This document shows, one piece after another, positions 16,938 through 26,083 of a stretch of DNA of 64,000 nucleotides. Origin of the DNA: Gemmiger formicilis (lineage in GTDB: Bacteria > Bacillota > Clostridia > Oscillospirales > Ruminococcaceae); assembly GCF_016900095.1 (NCBI RefSeq), contig NZ_JACJJP010000016.1, forward strand, positions 1 through 64,000, written 5' to 3'. The position numbers and the translations under genes are program-made. Positions within the stretch are counted from its first letter, which is position 1. Every line of letters starts with the position of its first letter. The notes beneath the pieces are model-generated. The model did not search any database. It saw only the letters and a program-made list of their open reading frames with translations, and was not told the origin of the DNA.

Positions 16938-17138
16938 TCAAAAGCTTGTACTCAGTTTCGGAAGATCCTTGCGATAAATTCGCCAGGACTTTCCCACACG
17001 AAAAGCGGGAAGAAGGCCCTGTTTGATCAATTTGTATACCGTATTTTTGTGGACACATAAAAACTCGGCAACTTCTTCCGGCTACAGAACTCTCGGCAAA
17101 TCCTGGCAATCATCGGGGTCAACGTCATAATAGAGCAT
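16938..17138 (-). pseudogene. Excisionase-type helix-turn-helix gene with an in-frame TAG
   Basis: The frame begins ATG at 17138 (MLYYDVDPDDCQDLPRVL), meets TAG at 17084-17082, and continues in the same frame with PEEVAEFLCVHKNTVYKLIK and then FRVGKSWRIYRKDLPKL to a TGA at 16938. The second part is a typical MerR-like excisionase DNA-binding domain. No ATG or GTG in good context follows the TAG, so the product is lost unless the amber codon is read. It pairs logically with the integrase remnant next to it. Confidence 0.65.
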
Positions 17139-17293
17139 AGGTATTACCACCAATCTGTGTACAAAGCAGCCCGGCGGAGCACAAAATTGCTATATCACAT
17201 CCAGGCACATTTTGCACACGAACTTTAACGTTTTGTAGAAGAAAAATTGACATTGCAGCACAATTATGCTACGCTTACATTGAGGTGATTACT

Positions 17294-17554
17294 ATGCCTG
17301 AAATCAGACCTATGCGCGACTTACGCGATACCAATGCCATTTCCCGTCTGTGCCATGCTACATCCGAACCCATCTTTATTACCAAAAACGGTTATCAGGA
17401 TTTGGTGATTATGAGCAACGAGGAATTTGAGCGCCGCTGTGCTCGAGAAGAAATCTATGCAAAACTTCTGGAAGCAGAAGGCGATGTGGCCCGCGGTGAT
17501 CTGACCGATGCTGATGATGTCTTTTCTGCGATGAGGGCCAAATATGAGTATTGA
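17294..17554 (+). CDS. Phd/YefM-type antitoxin
   Basis: 86 residues from the ATG at 17294, with TGAGGTGATT upstream. IRPMRDLRDTNAISRLCH followed by PIFITKNGYQDLVIMSNEEF is the standard Phd/YefM N-terminal DNA-binding fold; the C-terminal helix is the toxin-binding part. Its end overlaps the toxin start by 11 bases, so the two are coupled, and such antitoxins normally repress their own promoter. It sits between recombinase remnants and the CRISPR-linked WYL gene. Confidence 0.88.
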   Translation: MPEIRPMRDLRDTNAISRLCHATSEPIFITKNGYQDLVIMSNEEFERRCAREEIYAKLLEAEGDVARGDLTDADDVFSAMRAKYEY

Positions 17555-17870
17555 TCAGCCGTATGCCCTGCGCTTTACCCGCCATGCTGCCCGTGACCTA
17601 GATGAACTATTCCGCTATATTTCCTACGAACTGGATGCCGAAAAGGCCGCCAAAGAACTGATGCAGGAAGTGGAAACCTCTATTTCCAACCTGCGAGAGT
17701 TCCCCTATTCTGCCCCGCAATCCCGGGACGATTTGCTGGCCCGGAAAGGATATCGGACACTGACCGTACGGAAAAAATATGTGGTTGTGTATCGGGTATA
17801 TGAAGAAAAGCAGACAGTGATTGTCCATCGGATTTTTTATGGCAGACGGGATTACGGAAAATTATTATAA
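17544..17870 (+). CDS. RelE/ParE-family toxin
   Basis: 108 residues. ALRFTRHAARDLDELFRYI at the start, the central LREFPYSAPQSRDD and the end YVVVYRVYEEKQTVIVHRIF are standard for the RelE/ParE superfamily. Members either cleave mRNA on the ribosome or poison gyrase; the sequence alone does not decide. It is coupled to the antitoxin gene and followed by a strong terminator. Confidence 0.88.
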   Translation: MSIDQPYALRFTRHAARDLDELFRYISYELDAEKAAKELMQEVETSISNLREFPYSAPQSRDDLLARKGYRTLTVRKKYVVVYRVYEEKQTVIVHRIFYGRRDYGKLL

Positions 17871-17874
17871 AAAG

Positions 17875-17911
17875 GCAAAACAGCCGTATCAGAGCGATAC
17901 GGCTGTTTTGC
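17875..17911 (+). terminator. Rho-independent terminator after the toxin gene
   Basis: A perfect 16-bp stem (17875-17890 with 17896-17911) with A4 and T4 inside the arms. It separates the toxin-antitoxin unit from the WYL gene. Confidence 0.8.
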
Positions 17912-18002
17912 TTTGTATCTGCATATCTGCAAAAACATGTATAGCATATATATGTCATGTATGGTATGGTGTTATTAAGAAGCGGATGCGGAGGTGTCCC
18001 TT

Positions 18003-18995
18003 ATGAGCAAGGAAAATTTCCAGCGAATTTTGGCTCTAAAACTATATGAGATTTTACGTGAGGAAAGTGATGAGGAACATCCCCTTTCCCTGGCGGAGTT
18101 GCGGGAACTGCTTACCATGCGTGGGTATCCTTGTGATACGCGCACTGTTCGCACAGCCCTGAAAGCCTTGGTTGAGGGAGGATACGATATTCAAAAAGAA
18201 TTCCAGTATCCAAAAAACATGTACTGTCTGTTGGGGCGTGATTTTGATATAGCAGAGCTTCAGATTTTGGCGGATGCCGTCCGCTCTGCCACCTGCATTA
18301 CCGAAAAGAAAACCCACCAGCTTGTGGATAAGTTGTCGCTTTTGGCCGGGCGGCACTGTGCAGAAGTTTTGGAACACAAGCATCGGGTATACAGCGTTCA
18401 GAAATCAAGCAACGAAAACATTTTTCGCTACACCGACCAACTGCACCAGGCCATACAAACAGACCACCAGGTATCCTTCTTGTATCTGCGCAATCGGCAG
18501 CTCCGACAGGAGGAAGACGGCTTCCCCAAGCGGTATCTGGTAAGTCCGGTGGGTACCGTTTTCAACGATGGATTTTACTATCTGGTTGGAGAATCAAAGG
18601 ATCATCCTTCTTCACTGGTAAGCTACCGTGTAGACAGAATGCAAAAACTGGAAATATCCCCGTTGCCCCGCGCTTTAACCGGTATTGGCCGCCGTTTCAG
18701 CAAAGATCAATACCAAAAGAGAGTATTTTCAATGTATACCGGGCAGCCAACCCGTGTTACACTTCGGATTATTCCAAAATGGATTGATGCTGTTACGGAT
18801 GCCTTTGGCCCGGTTGTCCCGAAGAATCCGGAGCCAGATGGTTGGTACCTAGTTCCTGTGGAAGTTGACATCAGTCCCACGTTTTTTGCTTGGTGCTGTC
18901 ATTTTACGCATGGCTTCAAAATTGCGGCACCGGACAATGTTGTGCAGCAGATGAAGAAACACGTCAGTCAAATAGCTGATATGTATACAGAATAG
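18003..18995 (+). CDS. WYL-domain transcriptional regulator, CRISPR-adjacent
   Basis: 330 residues from the ATG at 18003, with GGAGG at 17990-17994; a GTG at 17994 overlaps that site. The N-terminal 65 residues form a winged helix-turn-helix (LAELRELLTMRGYPCDTRTV). The middle has the WYL ligand-binding region (VSFLYLRNRQLRQEEDG, then FYYLVGESKD), and a WCX-like C-terminal extension follows. Known WYL proteins sense nucleic-acid-like ligands, and some regulate CRISPR-Cas loci. The stop lies 18 bases before the first, degenerate CRISPR repeat on the same strand, so WYL transcription could run into the array. The cas genes face it from the other side. Confidence 0.88.
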   Translation: MSKENFQRILALKLYEILREESDEEHPLSLAELRELLTMRGYPCDTRTVRTALKALVEGGYDIQKEFQYPKNMYCLLGRDFDIAELQILADAVRSATCITEKKTHQLVDKLSLLAGRHCAEVLEHKHRVYSVQKSSNENIFRYTDQLHQAIQTDHQVSFLYLRNRQLRQEEDGFPKRYLVSPVGTVFNDGFYYLVGESKDHPSSLVSYRVDRMQKLEISPLPRALTGIGRRFSKDQYQKRVFSMYTGQPTRVTLRIIPKWIDAVTDAFGPVVPKNPEPDGWYLVPVEVDISPTFFAWCCHFTHGFKIAAPDNVVQQMKKHVSQIADMYTE

Positions 18996-19013
18996 GCCGA
19001 ATTTTATTGTGTA

Positions 19014-19712
19014 AATGTAGTTTGATGACAATTCTTGGTATGGTATAATTGAGGCGGATGTGTCTGCCAATTCCACCACTGTTGTAGCTCCCTGACAGTT
19101 CTTGGTATGGTATAATAGAGGAGCAACACAATGAAACTGTCTGAGCGTTGTAGCTCCCTGACAGTTCTTGGTATGGTATAATCGCCCAAAGGGTCACGAC
19201 CGGCAACAGGATGGTTGTAGCTCCCTGACAGTTCTTGGTATGGTATAATTTGCAGCAGCTGGCGTAAATCCGATGGTTCTGTTGTAGCTCCCTGACAGTT
19301 CTTGGTATGGTATAATTTCCCTGAGAGAGCATACTACAGGCCCATAGTTGTAGCTCCCTGACAGTTCTTGGTATGGTATAATCAAACGCTGCAGGGGTGC
19401 ATCATAGGGCCGGTTGTAGCTCCCTGACAGTTCTTGGTATGGTATAATTTTCAATGGGTTTGAATTTGAAGTTCTCGAGTTGTAGCTCCCTGACAGTTCT
19501 TGGTATGGTATAATTTAACTCCTTTCAGTATGGCCCGAACGTTTGTTGTAGCTCCCTGACAGTTCTTGGTATGGTATAATTTGCTGATCGACCTGGTGGA
19601 CAGCCCCATAGTTGTAGCTCCCTGACAGTTCTTGGTATGGTATAATAAGCCGAGTCAAACACCTGGAAAAAACTTTGTTGTAGCTCCCTGACAGTTCTTG
19701 GTATGGTATAAT
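19014..19712 (+). CRISPR. Type II-C CRISPR array, 11 repeats and 10 spacers
   Basis: Ten identical 36-bp repeats start at 19081, 19147, 19214, 19281, 19347, 19413, 19479, 19545, 19611 and 19677. An eleventh, degenerate copy at 19014-19049 differs at seven positions, nearly all in its first half. Spacers are 30 bp, with three of 31. The repeat begins GTTGTAGCTCCC, as I recall the Neisseria meningitidis II-C repeat doing, and ends GGTATGGTATAAT. By analogy with Neisseria crRNA and by complementarity to the tracrRNA, the plus strand is the crRNA sense, so the array is transcribed toward cas2. The degenerate repeat is therefore at the 5' end of the transcript and the perfect end abuts the cas genes. 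Confidence 0.97.
19014..19712 (+). promoter_or_regulatory. Extended -10 box at the 3' end of every repeat
   Basis: Each repeat, including the degenerate one, ends TGGTATAAT, a consensus extended -10 element (TGnTATAAT). In N. meningitidis the II-C repeats carry such elements and each crRNA starts inside its spacer. The same arrangement is expected here, with starts about 6-8 bases into each spacer. The conserved half of the degenerate repeat is exactly the promoter half, which supports selection on this element. No -35 box at proper spacing is obvious, as is usual for extended -10 promoters. Confidence 0.7.
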
Positions 19713-19721
19713 AGACTGTCA

Positions 19722-19757
19722 AAAAAGCGCTTCAGCATCACGCTGAAGCGCTTTTTC
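19722..19757. terminator. Bidirectional terminator between array and cas2
   Basis: An 11-bp stem (AGCGCTTCAGC at 19726-19736 with 19742-19752) is flanked by A and T runs. On the plus strand it stops array transcripts ten bases after the last repeat; on the minus strand it follows the cas2 stop. Converging cas and array transcription is thus insulated. Confidence 0.88.
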
Positions 19758-19770
19758 ATGTTGCTATAAA

Positions 19771-20091
19771 TCACAGAATTGTCAGCTGTTGGCTTTCAAA
19801 AGACTGGTCTGCCTCAGACAAATGGCCAAGCAAAATTTCGATGGAAGCATACTGTTTTTCTGTAATGACCAAAAGGCGGACAGCCCCATTATCCGGCAGA
19901 TGATCGTACAAACGGACCCGATGTTTTTGTACGGCATCGGCTCCGTTACAGATGCGGACATATACCGAATACTGCAACATATGGTACCCATCTTTCAACA
20001 AAAAATTCCGGAAGGCGGTGGCATCATGCCGCTGCTTTTTTGTTTTGACGGGCAGATCAAAGAGAACAACCAATCTCATGAATCTATTCAT
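19771..20091 (-). CDS. cas2: CRISPR-associated endoribonuclease Cas2
   Basis: 106 residues from the ATG at 20091, which overlaps the cas1 stop (ATGAATAG); a second ATG four codons on is also possible. The start FMRLVVLFDLPVKTKKQRHD carries the conserved strand and Asp of Cas2, and the middle HMLQYSVYVRICNG is the second beta-strand region. Cas2 bridges two Cas1 dimers in the spacer-integration complex. Last gene of the cas9-cas1-cas2 operon. Confidence 0.93.
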   Translation of the reverse strand: MNRFMRLVVLFDLPVKTKKQRHDATAFRNFLLKDGYHMLQYSVYVRICNGADAVQKHRVRLYDHLPDNGAVRLLVITEKQYASIEILLGHLSEADQSFESQQLTIL

Positions 20092-20974
20092 ACCTGTGTT
20101 GCTGCAATGGCACCAAACAGGGAAGGCACAGTTCTTTACTGCCACTGCGCAGGCTCTGTACCTGCCGTTCCATGGCGTGGGCAACACTGTACCGCTGTTT
20201 TCCGGAAAGGATGTCCATATTCAATAAGTTGAACAGACAACTTTTCAATATGGTATCCAATGCTGCCTCCTCCCTTATCTGTGATGCCACAAACAAATCG
20301 ACCACCGGACGATATGGTTCCATCATATCATCCGCCAGATTCCAGGCATTTAATGTACTGCTGTGATGCAGCCCCAGCCACGGAATGAACCCATACACCG
20401 CCAGACATCGCGCCATACAACCGCGCAGAATGGCATATCCATAGTTAAGCGCTGCGTTGCGTCCGTCCATATCTTCATTGCGGGTAAATCCTTTGCCAAA
20501 TAAGGATGGGAAATAAAGTGCCGCTGCCGTAGCTTCCCGATTTTCTTTATCTCCCCTGCTGACTGCCACAGCCTGGCTGTGTAAAACGGCGGCAACGTCA
20601 CAGATGCCGCATAAAGCCAGACACTCTGCCTGATTTTGTATTTTTGCCTTGACAAGCTGCTGCCACCAGCGGTTCCGTTCAGACTGTGTCCAGGCAAATT
20701 GTACTCTTGTCACCTCCAGCTGTCGGCTATGCTGCGCCAGCGGAAGAGTAATGGAGCAAGGAATATGCTTTTCATCGCATAGAAAAACGATTGTCCCATT
20801 TTTCGCCAATGCAGAAAGGGCTGCTGTCGTTACGGTACATTGGCGGCTTTCAATCAGGAGAGAGAGTAAATCTTCCAAGGGAAAGCTAGCGTTTGTTTCT
20901 CCTTGAATCACCAACTGCTCCCGCTGGCAGCTGATCCGGCAAGGTGTGGTGATTATCACGTTCCGGTAAGCCAT
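20084..20974 (-). CDS. cas1: CRISPR-associated integrase Cas1, type II
   Basis: 296 residues, the usual length for type II Cas1. An N-terminal beta domain is followed by the helical catalytic domain with Glu147 (KENREATAAALYF), His203/204 (WLGLHHSSTLNAWNLA) and Glu219 (DDMMEPYRPVVDLF), the expected metal-binding triad. The ATG comes 12 bases after the cas9 stop, with AAGGCGG between, so it is in the same operon. It captures and integrates new spacers together with Cas2. Confidence 0.96.
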   Translation of the reverse strand: MAYRNVIITTPCRISCQREQLVIQGETNASFPLEDLLSLLIESRQCTVTTAALSALAKNGTIVFLCDEKHIPCSITLPLAQHSRQLEVTRVQFAWTQSERNRWWQQLVKAKIQNQAECLALCGICDVAAVLHSQAVAVSRGDKENREATAAALYFPSLFGKGFTRNEDMDGRNAALNYGYAILRGCMARCLAVYGFIPWLGLHHSSTLNAWNLADDMMEPYRPVVDLFVASQIREEAALDTILKSCLFNLLNMDILSGKQRYSVAHAMERQVQSLRSGSKELCLPCLVPLQQHRYE

Positions 20975-20986
20975 ACGATCACCGCC

Positions 20987-23900
20987 TTATCGAAAAGATT
21001 GACGCTGTTCTTTTTTCACCTCTCTCACATTACCCAGGATATCTACTTCATATTTTTTCAAACTGGTCAGTGTTTTAACACCAAGTCCTCCAATGAAATA
21101 GGAATTATCATGATTGCATACACCTATTGCACCAGTAGAAATATTCATACCCGTATAATAACACAGCGTACTTTTTGTTTCCCATTTAGCCGGCAGAGTG
21201 CTGTCTTTATTCATAACTGCGAATGCAAGTTCCTTTTTATGTTCCACTGCAATCAAATCATCCGGATACAGTGAGAAAATAAAATTCTTATTTTCCATTA
21301 CCTTCCACACTGCATATTTTTTTGCCGCCACCACAGCCCGGTTAGGCAGTTCTTTCTTCTTTGTATCAGACACGTAAATGGGAACCATGTAATACCCGTC
21401 CCCCGGTACAAAAAACACATCCACACGCACCATACTGTCGTTATCGGCTGCACCATTTCCGCCATGGACCGGCACACACAGACTGGCCTTTTCGCACAGC
21501 TTGACCTTGCGCACCAGCGGTCCCGGCGTACCATCCGCCTTGGGCTTGTAAAATGGTTCGGTGAAAGCTTTCTTACCGTCCCCGTCAAATTCCAATAGCC
21601 GGGCGCGAAGGGCCTCATACAACAGCTTATCGCTTGACGGCTGGTAGTATCCCTCAATCTCGCCGGTCTTTTTATTCAGTTTCAAATCCGTCAACGGATG
21701 TTTGACGATCAGGAAGCCATCCTGCAGGGCTTTCGGGCTTTTGATGGTTTCCTTGTGGGCTGCCCCTGTCACCTTATGCTGCGGCATACGGGACACAAAA
21801 ACAGGCCGGATCGATTCCACATCAAAATTGGAATAAAACACCGGATTCCACTGCATCAGATTTTGCTGTGGTTCCTGGCTCAGGCGCTGAATCAGTTCGT
21901 CCCGGAAATGCGGCCACGGAGCCGGGAAACGCTCTCCGGTACGGGTATGCACGGAATAGGTGCCATCCGGCGACTGCTGATATTGGCCCTCAATGCGATG
22001 GTAGTAACCGGAAATCTGCTGTACCATCCCCTGGGTAGCACAGGCAATGACAGCCGCATCCAAGGCATGATGAAGATCACCGTCCGCCCGGACTTTGGTC
22101 AGGCCCCAACGTTTGCGAAGATGGCTGGTAACAGCACCCGCCAATGCCAAAACTCTCTGTTTTCCGGCAGCCGGGTGATCGGCAAAAGCAAGGTGATCCC
22201 GAATGTAATTCAGCAGAAAGCGAGCCATATACTGCGTGTCTTGCAGATTGCGCTGCTTGAAACCGTTTTGTTCTTCATCACTCAACGTTTCCCGCAGCAG
22301 ATTTTTCTGTTTGCGATAGTTGCGGACTTGTGACTTGGTCCACACGATAAATTTTTCGCGCCGTTCTCCCTGAAGATACTGTAACGGCAGCCGATTTCCT
22401 TTCTGACGGTTTTCAGCTGCCATCACCAGCACTTTGTTGCTGCGAGAATCATCAAAACTGATGCTGTATGGCACAATGTGGTCTACCTCGGCATAGCCGG
22501 GTTCAAACAGCCGTTCCGCTGCAATGCTCTGCTGAGAATAGGCACAAATCCCATCCTGCTCTTTCCACAGACGGTACTTGATCAAATCCTGTCCCGTAGG
22601 GTTCAACTTGTGGAATGTATCCCGGATTTCCTGCATCAGCCGTTCATTCTGCTTGGCATTGTCTTCCATGGATTTCTGGTCTTTGCGCCGTTCCTCAAAC
22701 GTGCGGCTCAGTTCTCGGGCCAGTTCAATGTGAATCCATACAGGCGACTGCCCCATTTCGCGGATGATAGCATTGATCAGCTTGATAGTCTGAGACACCG
22801 CACGGCGCACCACCGGACTGGTAATGTCCTCCAATTCCGGGGCCGAAGCCGGCAACTTAGATGTTTTTTCCGTATTTCCATGGCCATGGAAATTCAATCC
22901 GGCCTGGGCACACGCCTGGTCATAAGTAAGCCCCTGCATCAGCCATGGTTCCAACAACTGACAGGCCTTCAAAGAAATATGCCCGACACCGGAAAAATCC
23001 AGGCCAAGAACGGCTTCTATCTGCTCTGCAGTCAAACCTTTTTCTTCCAACAACTTCTTCCGGACATCTTCATCCCGATGGGATGCCAGGATCGTGATAA
23101 TATCATCCCACAAGGGAAGCTCTGGCTGTTGTGTGCCCAAGGCTTTGCGGAGCGCGTGATAGCCTTTCATCACCGGGAGCTTGTACTTTTTTTCTGCTAT
23201 TTCCGGTGCAGCATCTACGTCATATCGTACATCGGTGAACCGGATTTCCTGTGGCCATTTCAGCTCTTTACGAATCCGGGCATAAGGCACAGTCTCCACA
23301 CGATAGGCCAGATCTATTACTTTTTGACGCTCTTCATCAGAAAGAGCCCGGGTCTGCCCAGATTCCTGTACCCGGATATGATTAATCTTTTGCAGCAAGG
23401 TGAAGCGCTCAAAGCTGTATGTGTTTTTGAAGGCACGCTTTTCGTCCGGTAACAAGGTGCAAGGGCCAATTTTTTCTATCCAGCCTCCCCTATAAGGGCT
23501 ATTCCCGCCGGGGCCCTGATCAAAAGAACGTTGCCGCAAAAGAATAGAAAGATACTCTGCCTCCAGCTCCGGAGTTGCCCATGTCTGGCCCTTCTCACGC
23601 TGTGCAGCAAAGAGCAGTTGGGCTTCATTGGCAATTTCTTCCCGACTTACTGTGGAAAGATAATTTTCTCCCTTATTGCGTTTGCACGCTGCAAAAAGCG
23701 GATCTTTATACAGCATTTCACCAACAGTTCTATAGTCATTTTCCTGCATGCGCAAACGATTTTGTGTCACCGCTTGAAGAAGTGCTCCATCTTCCTTCGA
23801 CTTATCGGCCCGACGGTTGCTTTTAAAGCCACGACGCTGCATCAGATGCAGCAAAATACGCGCAAATTCCTGAGGTGTGACTGCCTCATCCAAGGCTCTT

Positions 23901-24223
23901 GTCCGCAACGCGTAAATATCCTCCAAACCGCCTGCCGCAAACAGCTGGGAAAGCTCTTCCTTGCCCGTCAGATGATTTTTCTCCAGAAGTTGATAGAAAT
24001 CCTGTTTGCGCAAAGCTTTGCGACGCAACCGACGACGCATACTGCGGGCCTCTCGCCTTGGTGCAGCCAGGCTTTCCCCCGTCTTCGGCTGCTCTGCGCG
24101 CTTGAACACACGGCTTCCAAGACGAATCAGACCACACGGCTGCGCCTTCTCATCCAAGGCAACGGTGGCCCATCCAATCGAAGCGACACCAATATCCAGA
24201 CCGATTCCATAAGGCCAATGCAT
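20987..24223 (-). CDS. cas9: CRISPR effector nuclease Cas9, type II-C
   Basis: 1078 residues from the ATG at 24223, which has AGGAGG nine bases upstream; the frame is open further but that part encodes the tracrRNA. RuvC-I is YGIGLDIGVASIGWA with Asp10. An Arg-rich bridge helix spans about 55-80 (REARSMRRRLRRKALRK). RuvC-II is WIHIELARELS with Glu500, HNH is EVDHIVPYS with Asp581 and His582 and a later NRQKGN, and RuvC-III is HHALDAAVIA with His719 and Asp722. The length and the absence of a fourth cas gene mark subtype II-C. All nuclease residues are present, so it should cut DNA guided by crRNA and tracrRNA. Its PAM cannot be read from this sequence. Confidence 0.97.
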   Translation of the reverse strand: MHWPYGIGLDIGVASIGWATVALDEKAQPCGLIRLGSRVFKRAEQPKTGESLAAPRREARSMRRRLRRKALRKQDFYQLLEKNHLTGKEELSQLFAAGGLEDIYALRTRALDEAVTPQEFARILLHLMQRRGFKSNRRADKSKEDGALLQAVTQNRLRMQENDYRTVGEMLYKDPLFAACKRNKGENYLSTVSREEIANEAQLLFAAQREKGQTWATPELEAEYLSILLRQRSFDQGPGGNSPYRGGWIEKIGPCTLLPDEKRAFKNTYSFERFTLLQKINHIRVQESGQTRALSDEERQKVIDLAYRVETVPYARIRKELKWPQEIRFTDVRYDVDAAPEIAEKKYKLPVMKGYHALRKALGTQQPELPLWDDIITILASHRDEDVRKKLLEEKGLTAEQIEAVLGLDFSGVGHISLKACQLLEPWLMQGLTYDQACAQAGLNFHGHGNTEKTSKLPASAPELEDITSPVVRRAVSQTIKLINAIIREMGQSPVWIHIELARELSRTFEERRKDQKSMEDNAKQNERLMQEIRDTFHKLNPTGQDLIKYRLWKEQDGICAYSQQSIAAERLFEPGYAEVDHIVPYSISFDDSRSNKVLVMAAENRQKGNRLPLQYLQGERREKFIVWTKSQVRNYRKQKNLLRETLSDEEQNGFKQRNLQDTQYMARFLLNYIRDHLAFADHPAAGKQRVLALAGAVTSHLRKRWGLTKVRADGDLHHALDAAVIACATQGMVQQISGYYHRIEGQYQQSPDGTYSVHTRTGERFPAPWPHFRDELIQRLSQEPQQNLMQWNPVFYSNFDVESIRPVFVSRMPQHKVTGAAHKETIKSPKALQDGFLIVKHPLTDLKLNKKTGEIEGYYQPSSDKLLYEALRARLLEFDGDGKKAFTEPFYKPKADGTPGPLVRKVKLCEKASLCVPVHGGNGAADNDSMVRVDVFFVPGDGYYMVPIYVSDTKKKELPNRAVVAAKKYAVWKVMENKNFIFSLYPDDLIAVEHKKELAFAVMNKDSTLPAKWETKSTLCYYTGMNISTGAIGVCNHDNSYFIGGLGVKTLTSLKKYEVDILGNVREVKKEQRQSFR

Positions 24224-24246
24224 TCGTCTCAACCTCCTATTGTGCG

Positions 24247-24345
24247 TATAAAAAAAGATGACGCCCTGCAAGCAGGGCGTCAGAGCTTTACGGTATACTA
24301 CCTTATTGTAGCAACCATAACAGTTCTTGGTATGGTATAAGAACT
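24247..24345 (-). ncRNA. tracrRNA
   Basis: On the minus strand an anti-repeat from about 24341 to 24305 includes 20 bases perfectly complementary to the 3' part of the repeat (TTATACCATACCAAGAACTG), then GGTTGCTACAAT complementary to its 5' part. It continues with AAGG, a small hairpin around GTAGTATACCGTAAAG, and a terminal stem GACGCCCTGC/GCAGGGCGTC followed by a seven-T run. The order anti-repeat, nexus, CTCTG, terminator hairpin is what I recall for Neisseria tracrRNA. It lies directly upstream of cas9 on the same strand. The 5' end is set by a promoter at 24352-24380. Confidence 0.9.
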
Positions 24346-24351
24346 GTATAT

Positions 24352-24380
24352 AGTATAGCAAATCTCAGCCCCGTTGTAAA
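24352..24380 (-). promoter_or_regulatory. Sigma-70-type promoter for the tracrRNA
   Basis: On the minus strand TTTACA (24380-24375) and TATACT (24357-24352) are separated by exactly 17 bases. The start point would be near 24345, just before the anti-repeat. No other promoter is evident before cas9, so cas9 may depend on readthrough of the tracrRNA terminator. Confidence 0.75.
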
Positions 24381-24500
24381 GATGCAAGCTTTGTTGAACT
24401 GATTCTAAAAGTATGATACCATGTGGCTTAGGTAAATTGCTATACCTATTTTTGAATACCAATATTCCCAATTTTGGGGCCAGGCACTTGTCCGTCCCCT

Positions 24501-24661
24501 GTCCGTGCAAACGGTTTCGTAAAATGTAAAATAGGGTCCACCCTATTTTTACATTTCAGATGCAATCGGCGGCTAACAGGCGAAAATCAAAGGCCGATTA
24601 CAGCGGTTTTGTGCCGGCCCAAAGGAATCCGGCCCTCATAACCCGGAAGTCGCAGGTTCAA
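24501..24661 (+). repeat. 161-bp direct repeat, left copy
   Basis: Matches 38822-38982 over 161 bp without gaps, with 17 differences by my count (about 89%). It contains a hairpin (GTAAAATAGGG with CCCTATTTTTAC) and ends in the 3' half of a tRNA-Met gene, starting CTCATAACCCGG. This copy then continues through the rest of the tRNA 3' end. The layout suggests an attachment site of an integrating element that targets tRNA-Met. Confidence 0.8.
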
Positions 24662-24682
24662 TCCCTGTCCCCGCAGCCGCCA
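24635..24682 (+). tRNA. tRNA-Met 3' half only (att-site-like fragment)
   Basis: From the anticodon loop CTCATAA (anticodon CAT) through CCCGG, the GCAGGTTCAATCC T-arm and CCCCGC, the sequence follows a clostridial tRNA-Met, but the acceptor 5' strand, D-arm and 5' anticodon strand are absent. It is therefore not a functional tRNA gene. Such 3' halves are left by integrating elements that use tRNA genes as attachment sites. Confidence 0.65.
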
Positions 24683-24720
24683 AAAGAACGGTAAAATGTC
24701 ATATTTTACCATTCTTTTCT
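24683..24720 (+). terminator. Terminator-like hairpin after the tRNA fragment
   Basis: GGTAAAAT pairs with ATTTTACC around a five-base loop, extended by AGAA/TTCT with one mismatch, and T runs follow. It resembles a former tRNA terminator. The rest of 24721-24868 has no supported gene. Confidence 0.5.
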
Positions 24721-24868
24721 TTTTTTCGGTTGTCGTCTTAAAATTCTCAGATTTTGACCCCAAAACGCTTTTTCTTTTCCACCGTTCATTTCTAATCGGT
24801 GGAAAATCGTAACGGACAATATAACGGACAACAGCCCCAGCCATCCGGCCAGGGCCGTTTTTGTTTAT

Positions 24869-25636
24869 TCAGGCTGTCTTCAGGAGGATCAGCACGCTGT
24901 TCTCCGGCACCACGATATTCTCCTGCCGAGTGGGGATCGGCGGATATTTGAACTGGCTTAGCGCCTTCTGGATCTGCTTTTTTGCTTCCATCAAGGCCGC
25001 TTCCATTGTGCCGGCTTGAATCTGTATTTTCGGAAAGTCCGGCGCAAAGGCTTTGCGTCCCTCTTCTGTGGCAGTAAACAGTACCGGGTAAGGCTGTTGC
25101 TCCACCGAGATTTCCAGGCTCATCCCGAACAGGTCATCCATTTTATCCATCTCGTTTCGCTTGTGCTCATCCATGCTGTGCACATAAGTATCCATCGTGA
25201 ACGATACGGAGTAACTCGCTGCTTTTTCATCAAAGAACAGTCCGTACAAACCTTTCCCGTGTACAGTTCTAGGAAAAGAGGCGTTTACCAGACCGGGAAT
25301 CGTTACCAGTAAATCATCCAATTCTATCAATTCCTCACAGACGCCTGTGCCAATCTTGTTCTTCCAATGGGCAATCAGTAGAATATCGATAGATTCTTCA
25401 TACGGCAACTGCTTATCCTTTTCTCCTTGGCTGCCCAACAATTCCCCATGATTCGAACTATAGAAAATGAGAGTATTTTCCAACATCTCCAACTGTTCCA
25501 GCTTACTTCCTATTTTCCTTACCTGCTCATTAATGGTCGTAATGGTCTTTGCCAGAACCACATCGTTGGTCTGCTTGTCCCGGACAAGGGTCAGATCGTA
25601 ACTCTGCTTGGTACCGACAAAATCTATAAGAAGCAC
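24869..25636 (-). pseudogene. In-frame chimera of adhesin, sulfatase, integrase and HicB pieces
   Basis: One open frame of 255 codons joins four unrelated pieces. It starts with the end of a SpaA-type adhesin domain (FVGTKQSYDLTLVRDKQTND). A C-terminal stretch of a sulfatase follows (LIFYSSNHGELLGSQG, PYEESIDILLIAHW, HGKGLYGLFF). Next comes the last helix of a tyrosine recombinase (VSFTMDTYVHSMDEHKRNEM), and finally a HicB-like tail (PVLFTATEEGRK, FAPDFPKIQIQAGTMEAALM). Each piece lacks its active-site half. I regard it as recombination debris that happens to stay open. Each family call rests on motif recall. Confidence 0.55.
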
Positions 25637-26083
25637 CGGTTTCTTCGATATGGTAACTGCCCAACGGCAAGTTCACCGCAACTTCACCTACCGCGCCACC
25701 GTGTTTGGCCGGGAGGAAAGCATAGGTGGAATTGGTACGCTCCGAAGCAAAGGCAGCAATGTCGCTGGTGCCATCACCGGTGCGGACAACGGCTTACCAC
25801 ATCGCCTTCGGCATACCAGAGAGATATGTTCCCATCGGCATCCGTCTGCCGTTCCTGAGTGCAAATATCCTCATTGGCTGTGATGGTATATTCGGCATAA
25901 GGGATGGGCCGTTCTTCATACACAAAGTAGCTGGGCTTTGCCGGAAAATGCCGGTTCAAGAGTGGCGCCCTCATCCTCCTGCCAGCCGGTAAAAACTTCG
26001 CTGGTCTTGCAGACTTTCAGAACCCCCAGCGTTGCGTTGTTCTGGTAATCCTCATCAATCACCAGAATATCCTGTCTATTTTT
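25637..26083 (-). pseudogene. SpaA/prealbumin-fold surface adhesin, frameshifted remnant
   Basis: Pieces in different minus-strand frames line up as one protein: ATLGVLKVCKTSEVFTGWQE near 26.03 kb, then KPSYFVYEERPIPYAEYTIT, then TDADGNISLWYAEGDVV, then VAVNLPLGSYHIEETGASY near 25.66 kb. This order is typical of prealbumin-like (SpaA/Cna-B) domains of cell-wall adhesins carried on clostridial mobile elements. At least three frame changes are needed, so it is dead. Confidence 0.6.

Follow-up and report, generated by a model that had tools for sequence, protein, structure and literature searches.

A type II-C CRISPR locus of a Gemmiger-like bacterium whose leader is predicted to pair with the newest repeat

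Several features of type II-C CRISPR-Cas systems have been described in a small number of bacteria. In C. jejuni, transcription starts were mapped inside each spacer, downstream of a −10-like box that closes the repeat, and N. meningitidis was named as being alike (Dugar et al., 2013; PMC3656092). Acquisition in C. jejuni was placed at the end of the array opposite to its upstream start, and a dominant start within one spacer was described as well (PMC4283603). C. cellulolyticum has a repeat-end box, and its array is transcribed opposite to the cas genes (PMC7038990). Transcription toward the leader (variable) end was also reported for F. columnare, whose repeats carry no −10 box (PMC8092290). 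Across type II-C, acquisition was placed at the last repeat, and 60% of first repeats were found to be mutated, mostly in the first 15 nt (PMC12080349). Publications on type II-C already cover promoters within the repeats, transcription running toward cas2, spacer acquisition next to cas2 and a first repeat with mutations (PMC3656092, PMC7038990, PMC12080349, PMC6008519). Orientation tools conflict for this type and subgroups have been suggested (PMC12638026). With regard to the leader, a report on type II-A and type VI states that II-C employs other strategies (PMC13187072), and the accessible sections of PMC3936727 and PMC13431127 hold nothing that bears on it.

The locus compared here lies in a 64,000-nucleotide stretch of a Gemmiger formicilis contig, referred to as the window (Table 1). 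cas9, cas1 and cas2 are consecutive, with no csn2 or cas4 in family scans of four proteins, and 58 bases separate them from the array. The start of cas2 was placed well inside its open reading frame because the Cas2 domain begins at residue 37. A compact Cas9, a type II Cas1 and a tracrRNA with an anti-repeat near cas9 characterize the locus as type II-C, and the nearest named relatives of its Cas9 are labelled Gemmiger and Subdoligranulum. Taken as a whole, this is very probably an ordinary type II-C CRISPR-Cas system of a Gemmiger-like bacterium with repeat-borne promoters. An Rfam search of positions 17000-26000 gave five matches up to E 1, none of them at gathering score.

Table 1. Coordinates of the features of the type II-C locus in the window.
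Feature	Position	Strand	Remarks
Oldest ("extra") repeat	19014..19049	+	7 mismatches in positions 1-18; extended −10 box and 3′ half kept
Ten identical repeats	19081..19712	+	crRNA sense; each ends in TGGTATAAT
cas2-proximal repeat	19677..19712	+	Predicted newest; positions 13-20 (19689-19696) pair with leader
Leader start, AGACTGTCA	19713..19721	+	19714-19721 pair with 19689-19696
Terminator-like hairpin	19722..19756	+	15 bp with T-run; abuts leader-repeat hairpin
cas2	about 19771..20091	-	ORF 19771-20187; start probably near 20091
cas1	20084..20974	-	Type II family TIGR03639, 275 bits
cas9	20987..24223	-	1078 aa from the ATG used in alignment; TIGR01865, 797 bits
tracrRNA	about 24252..24345	-	5′ hairpin, anti-repeat, terminator hairpin; ends predicted
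tracrRNA terminator hairpin	24282-24259	-	Just before cas9
Predicted tracrRNA promoter	24352..24380	-	TTTACA-17-TATACT; a consensus match (8 sites vs 7.6 in shuffles)

The array consists of 11 CRISPR repeats of 36 nt at 19014-19712, which start at 19014, 19081, 19147, 19214, 19281, 19347, 19413, 19479, 19545, 19611 and 19677 and are separated by spacers of 30-31 nt. All 11 share the 3′ end TGGTATAAT, as the original prediction had stated with exact coordinates. The window contains 13 copies of the motif TGNTATAAT, and 11 fall within the array repeats (shuffles: mean 1.0, maximum 4). The further expectation that every repeat carries a promoter sequence is thereby borne out (11 of 11 at the sequence level), and the same has been published for C. 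jejuni and C. cellulolyticum. By analogy with these species, an extended −10 promoter at each repeat end would start a crRNA a few nucleotides inside the spacer that follows, running toward cas2, and tracrRNA and RNase III would trim the product. Starts had been anticipated 6-8 bases into the spacer; those of C. jejuni are quoted as lying 4-5 nt in instead. The assignment of the crRNA sense to the plus strand, toward cas2, was upheld; the cas operon lies on the opposite strand. The proposed likeness to Neisseria also finds backing, in that the C. jejuni and C. cellulolyticum papers cite N. meningitidis as alike. The layout had moreover been called the opposite of the usual one, which is true of the transcript sense, but the order of cas genes, leader, new repeats and old repeat is the usual one.

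A gene for a WYL-domain regulator (17994-18995), read in the same direction, stops 18 nt short of the oldest repeat. No terminator was listed between this gene and the array in a scan from 18800, so read-through would enter the array. As a conserved array partner the gene was rejected, other neighbours being seen elsewhere (41 arrays, by eye). Searches with the spacers revealed no protospacer having a usable PAM, either in a phage collection (all 10 spacers) or in IMG/VR (five spacers). The 26 records returned from the phage collection all concern spacer 1, mostly carry a tRNA-Leu annotation and have E values of 0.7 or worse. Similarly, spacer 1 alone matched in an exact IMG/VR scan with 21-23 nt cores of five of the 10 spacers: the 21-nt core of this oldest spacer (19050-19080) was present in 73 viral stretches, the best with two mismatches over 31 nt. 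Spacer 1 resembles the 5′ end of tRNA-Leu genes, and no second copy of it was found in its own genome at up to three mismatches.

In the oldest repeat, mismatches occur at positions 1, 2, 8, 10, 11, 12 and 18, and positions 19-36 are unchanged. The original prediction that this degenerate repeat retains its promoter half is therefore correct; its first half does hold the seven mismatches, but to say that it lost most matches was overstated, since 11 of 18 positions still match. To place this decay in context, relatives were collected from 66 contig-search loci and genome-search matches, which yielded 47 II-C and 26 II-A arrays. Left out were 18 further contig loci and nine genome-search loci with no array, the unclear loci L099 and L104, and seven loci that are second copies of included arrays. 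Six of the 47 II-C arrays touch a contig end; L058 has a masked leader and L070 only Ns, and such cases were dropped before the counts. The repeat ends in TATAAT in 37 of the 47 II-C arrays, or in 19 of 27 distinct repeat types, and TG is found at the extended position in 44 of 47. None of the 26 II-A repeats ends in TANNNT. One II-C array, found as both L079 and L090, has 39 repeats that end in TTAGACG, with the −10 box absent at the usual place.

Excluding contig-end arrays, one or more mismatches are present in the cas2-distal repeat of 35 of 41 II-C arrays, vs two of 47 for the cas2-side repeat (L061 and L123, one mismatch each). The II-A control gave a mutated distal repeat in 21 of 25 arrays and a mutated cas-side repeat in 0 of 26. 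When a decayed repeat was defined by three or more mismatches, loss fell mainly in the half away from the leader in 25 of 27 decayed II-C and 12 of 14 decayed II-A repeats, the two II-A rows with 16 scattered mismatches each (L080 and L083) being retained. Mismatches in the proximal and distal halves numbered 23 and 198 in the 27 II-C repeats, and 19 and 90 in the 14 II-A repeats. Of the decayed repeats, 19 of 27 in II-C and 11 of 14 in II-A keep their first 12 nt unchanged.

The half-decay in the window is thus a general feature of the oldest repeat. The kept half had been read as a sign of selection on the promoter, but II-A arrays, which lack such a promoter, degenerate in that same half away from the leader, so half-decay alone is not evidence for it. 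Whether the unchanged half of the old repeat is nonetheless preserved by promoter selection is nearly an even question, with the balance slightly against it. In its favour, 20 of the 27 decayed II-C repeats keep the whole −10 hexamer and two of 27 keep the far 6 nt, and the same constraint is suggested in the discussion of PMC12080349, according to which the promoter in the first repeat has to be retained. However, positions 13-24 decay barely more in II-C than in II-A (14.8% vs 8.9%, p 0.066). In II-A the retained repeat half is required for the last crRNA, so that different selection could give the same picture and decay alone cannot decide.

By analogy with other II-C systems, acquisition is predicted at the cas2 side of the window array, with new spacers entering between the leader and repeat 19677. 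Entry at this point would make 19014 the oldest repeat, free to decay. Among related arrays, the cas2-side flank is closer than the distal flank in four of five comparable pairs (eight were tried), and in L062/L068 leader and distal flank are equally similar. No spacers are shared among the 47 II-C arrays besides one apparent case, L059/L060. This "shared spacer" was rejected and taken as leader, arising from a spurious first repeat kept by the script; the two leaders are identical.

A further feature of the locus is a predicted structure at its cas2 side, which the original prediction had not noted. Folding of the last repeat together with the leader gave an 8-bp helix, adjoined by a terminator helix (19722-19736 with 19742-19756), and the whole stretch scored z −5.4 vs shuffles. 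The terminator originally expected right after the last repeat is matched by a 15-bp hairpin followed by Ts, past the first nine leader bases. The flanking A-tract and T-tract suggest that this terminator-like hairpin could act in both directions. A terminator-like hairpin begins in the first 25 leader nt of 36 of 46 II-C arrays and is missing from 10; the chance level was 5.5 from mononucleotide shuffles, and the distal flanks gave 6 of 40. Of 16 plasmid records with a Cas9 match, 14 were included; five of these were without an array and L203 had just two repeats, read by eye. In II-C loci on plasmids of other phyla, similar hairpins were seen by eye, unscored, in several of nine arrays, and leader-repeat pairing looks absent on inspection at L202, L212 and L214.

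Further analysis indicated that the leader and the repeat change together. In 26 distinct and unselected Bacillota II-C repeat types, the first 12 leader nt pair with their own repeat at −8.17 vs −5.96 kcal/mol for swapped combinations (z −5.8), and 0 of 20,000 permutations were as low. Leader lengths of 8, 10, 16, 20, 24 and 30 nt were likewise significant (p 0.0002 or less), and a smaller test with 22 types gave the same answer. The distal flank, leader positions 21-36 and II-A leaders showed no excess of own over swapped pairing. The II-A leader-repeat hairpin, included as a positive control (n=20), was missed by the swap test, so that a hairpin may be present even where the test shows nothing. 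A threshold of −8 kcal/mol is reached by 13 of the 26 own pairs vs 20% of swapped ones; about half of the types therefore show clear pairing. In a count made without a control, 38 of 47 arrays fold with four or more repeat-leader pairs; pairing is weak or absent in L040, L054, L059/L060, L063, L066/L067, L091 and L120. A cas2-side leader-repeat pairing that co-evolves with the repeat seems to be new; no report of it in II-C was found in a paper library that covers a minority of subscription papers.

In 11 systems with the window's register, pairing holds for 95.5% of cells and two-sided changes for 14 cells (0 of 500 shuffles reached such levels); six of the eight pairs include changes of this kind. 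The covariation score of these systems is 0.557 vs at most 0.233 in slid registers. Further pair types are unremarkable (11 vs 9.3, a value reached by 54 of 500 shuffles). Since the 11-row alignment was hand-picked after the register was seen, its covariation supports the pairing and does not prove it. Wobble pairs were used to ask which strand is involved. The 77 core cells of these systems hold seven G-U pairs in the crRNA sense vs one in the antisense, and a looser tally that took in extended helices yielded 49 G-U vs 74 A-C, opposite to the core count. We think that the looser count is inflated, presumably by a C-run of the repeat facing an A-run of the leader. As the two counts conflict, the strand argument is modest.

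These data bear on whether the complementarity acts as RNA or is a DNA signal, for example an inverted Cas1-Cas2 site at the insertion point. A DNA signal would suit a complementarity that sits exactly at the predicted insertion junction, and both the looser wobble count and the antisense strand, whose pairing also beats swapped combinations (z −5.4 at 12 nt), point the same way. Yet the pairing register differs between systems, the core wobble is one-sided, and a protein site would need a change of specificity with each repeat. Such a signal is accordingly given roughly one chance in four; a hairpin of same-strand single-stranded DNA is possible. Pairing that acts as RNA is the favoured reading, held with moderate confidence. 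That the co-variation instead reflects relatedness or base composition, or a functionless inverted duplication repeated at the array edge, is improbable: the 26 repeat types are related and permutation leaves some shared ancestry, but the distal flank, leader 21-36 and a segment further upstream of the tracrRNA are all null by the same method, and two-sided pair changes are frequent. Conventional array transcription from a minus-strand leader promoter beside cas2, although the usual arrangement outside II-C, is most improbable here, because the minus-strand leader is also terminator-like in 32 arrays (with a wider start range), the boxes of the window repeats lie on the plus strand, and II-C arrays with published transcription are read toward the cas or leader side.

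A role for the leader can be proposed. All eleven promoters face the cas operon on the other strand, which makes the leader first of all a transcription stop. The leader hairpin probably stops transcription short of the cas genes, and the stop is likely to protect them from antisense transcription. Being tied to the insertion point, it would shield the operon however many spacers are added. The nucleotides upstream of the terminator would meanwhile capture the middle of the newest repeat in a second hairpin, which may slow tracrRNA pairing at this repeat until tracrRNA displaces it. What is gained by the repeat hairpin is not evident, because it covers a repeat required for the newest crRNA. 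The grip on this repeat may serve to make termination stronger, to hold back tracrRNA pairing or, as DNA, to mark the site of integration. Should the leader hairpin work as RNA, it would explain how many cas-facing promoters avoid silencing their own cas genes, and II-C would gain a kind of control by leader RNA that has until now been described for II-A and type VI.

A comparable self-pairing is predicted in the tracrRNA, which the original prediction had likewise not noted. Its anti-repeat is the repeat-like stretch at 24306-24341, in which TATAAG replaces the TATAAT of the array and the plus-strand −10 box is thereby disrupted. The anti-repeat pairs with its own 5′ flank at −6.56 vs −4.29 for swapped flanks (z −5.9, n=25; antisense z −4.3), and the segment further upstream is null. 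Its other half pairs with the stretch after it at −8.28 vs −5.96 (z −5.9, n=22, without a control segment). Five of 47 loci were dropped from the test because their best match was not a tracrRNA, and five more from that of the second helix for a missing anchor. The window tracrRNA alone is predicted to fold over both anti-repeat halves. Its predicted energy is −65.3 when combined with the first 30 repeat nt, whereas the tracrRNA and the repeat folded separately have −40.1 and −4.4; a duplex with the crRNA repeat would thus be far more stable than the separate folds. No report of a double tracrRNA fold-back in II-C was found in the same paper library. The tracrRNA terminator stands directly before the cas9 ribosome-binding site (24223-24282), and cas9 may therefore depend on read-through or on another promoter.

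From this, it can be suggested, tentatively and with the odds against it, that Clostridia-type II-C systems lock both of their RNAs. The tracrRNA would fold over its anti-repeat halves, and the leader would fold over the newest repeat while ending transcription. Maturation would then proceed by strand displacement, and the newest crRNA would be controlled separately. If true, this double lock would mirror the leader RNA of II-A. A self-folding tracrRNA is also relevant to guide design for compact Cas9s.

Among known systems, the II-C arrays of C. jejuni, N. meningitidis and C. cellulolyticum resemble the window array most closely, having an extended −10-like box at the repeat 3′ end, spacer-internal starts, which are predicted for the window, and a tracrRNA. 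C. cellulolyticum also has transcription opposite to the cas genes, as is predicted from the sequence of the window. Unlike theirs, the window box is a perfect TATAAT, and leader-repeat pairing is not described for them in the accessible text. The mutated extra repeat is likewise familiar, its mutations being concentrated within the initial 15 nt (PMC12080349); that study looked for structures upstream of the array, whereas the window hairpin lies at the opposite, cas2-side end. A hairpin masking a spacer-less extra repeat was not seen in the present arrays, as the extra-repeat flank pairs no better than swapped. The leader-repeat hairpins of II-A and type VI provide a further parallel (PMC13187072; Liao 2022 as cited there). 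Base pairing between leader RNA and the acquisition-end repeat is described there and predicted here. However, in II-A and VI the paired repeat is a spacer-less extra repeat and the leader lies upstream (PMC13187072), whereas in the window it is the last repeat, needed by the newest crRNA, that is paired, and the leader lies downstream and carries a terminator-like hairpin.
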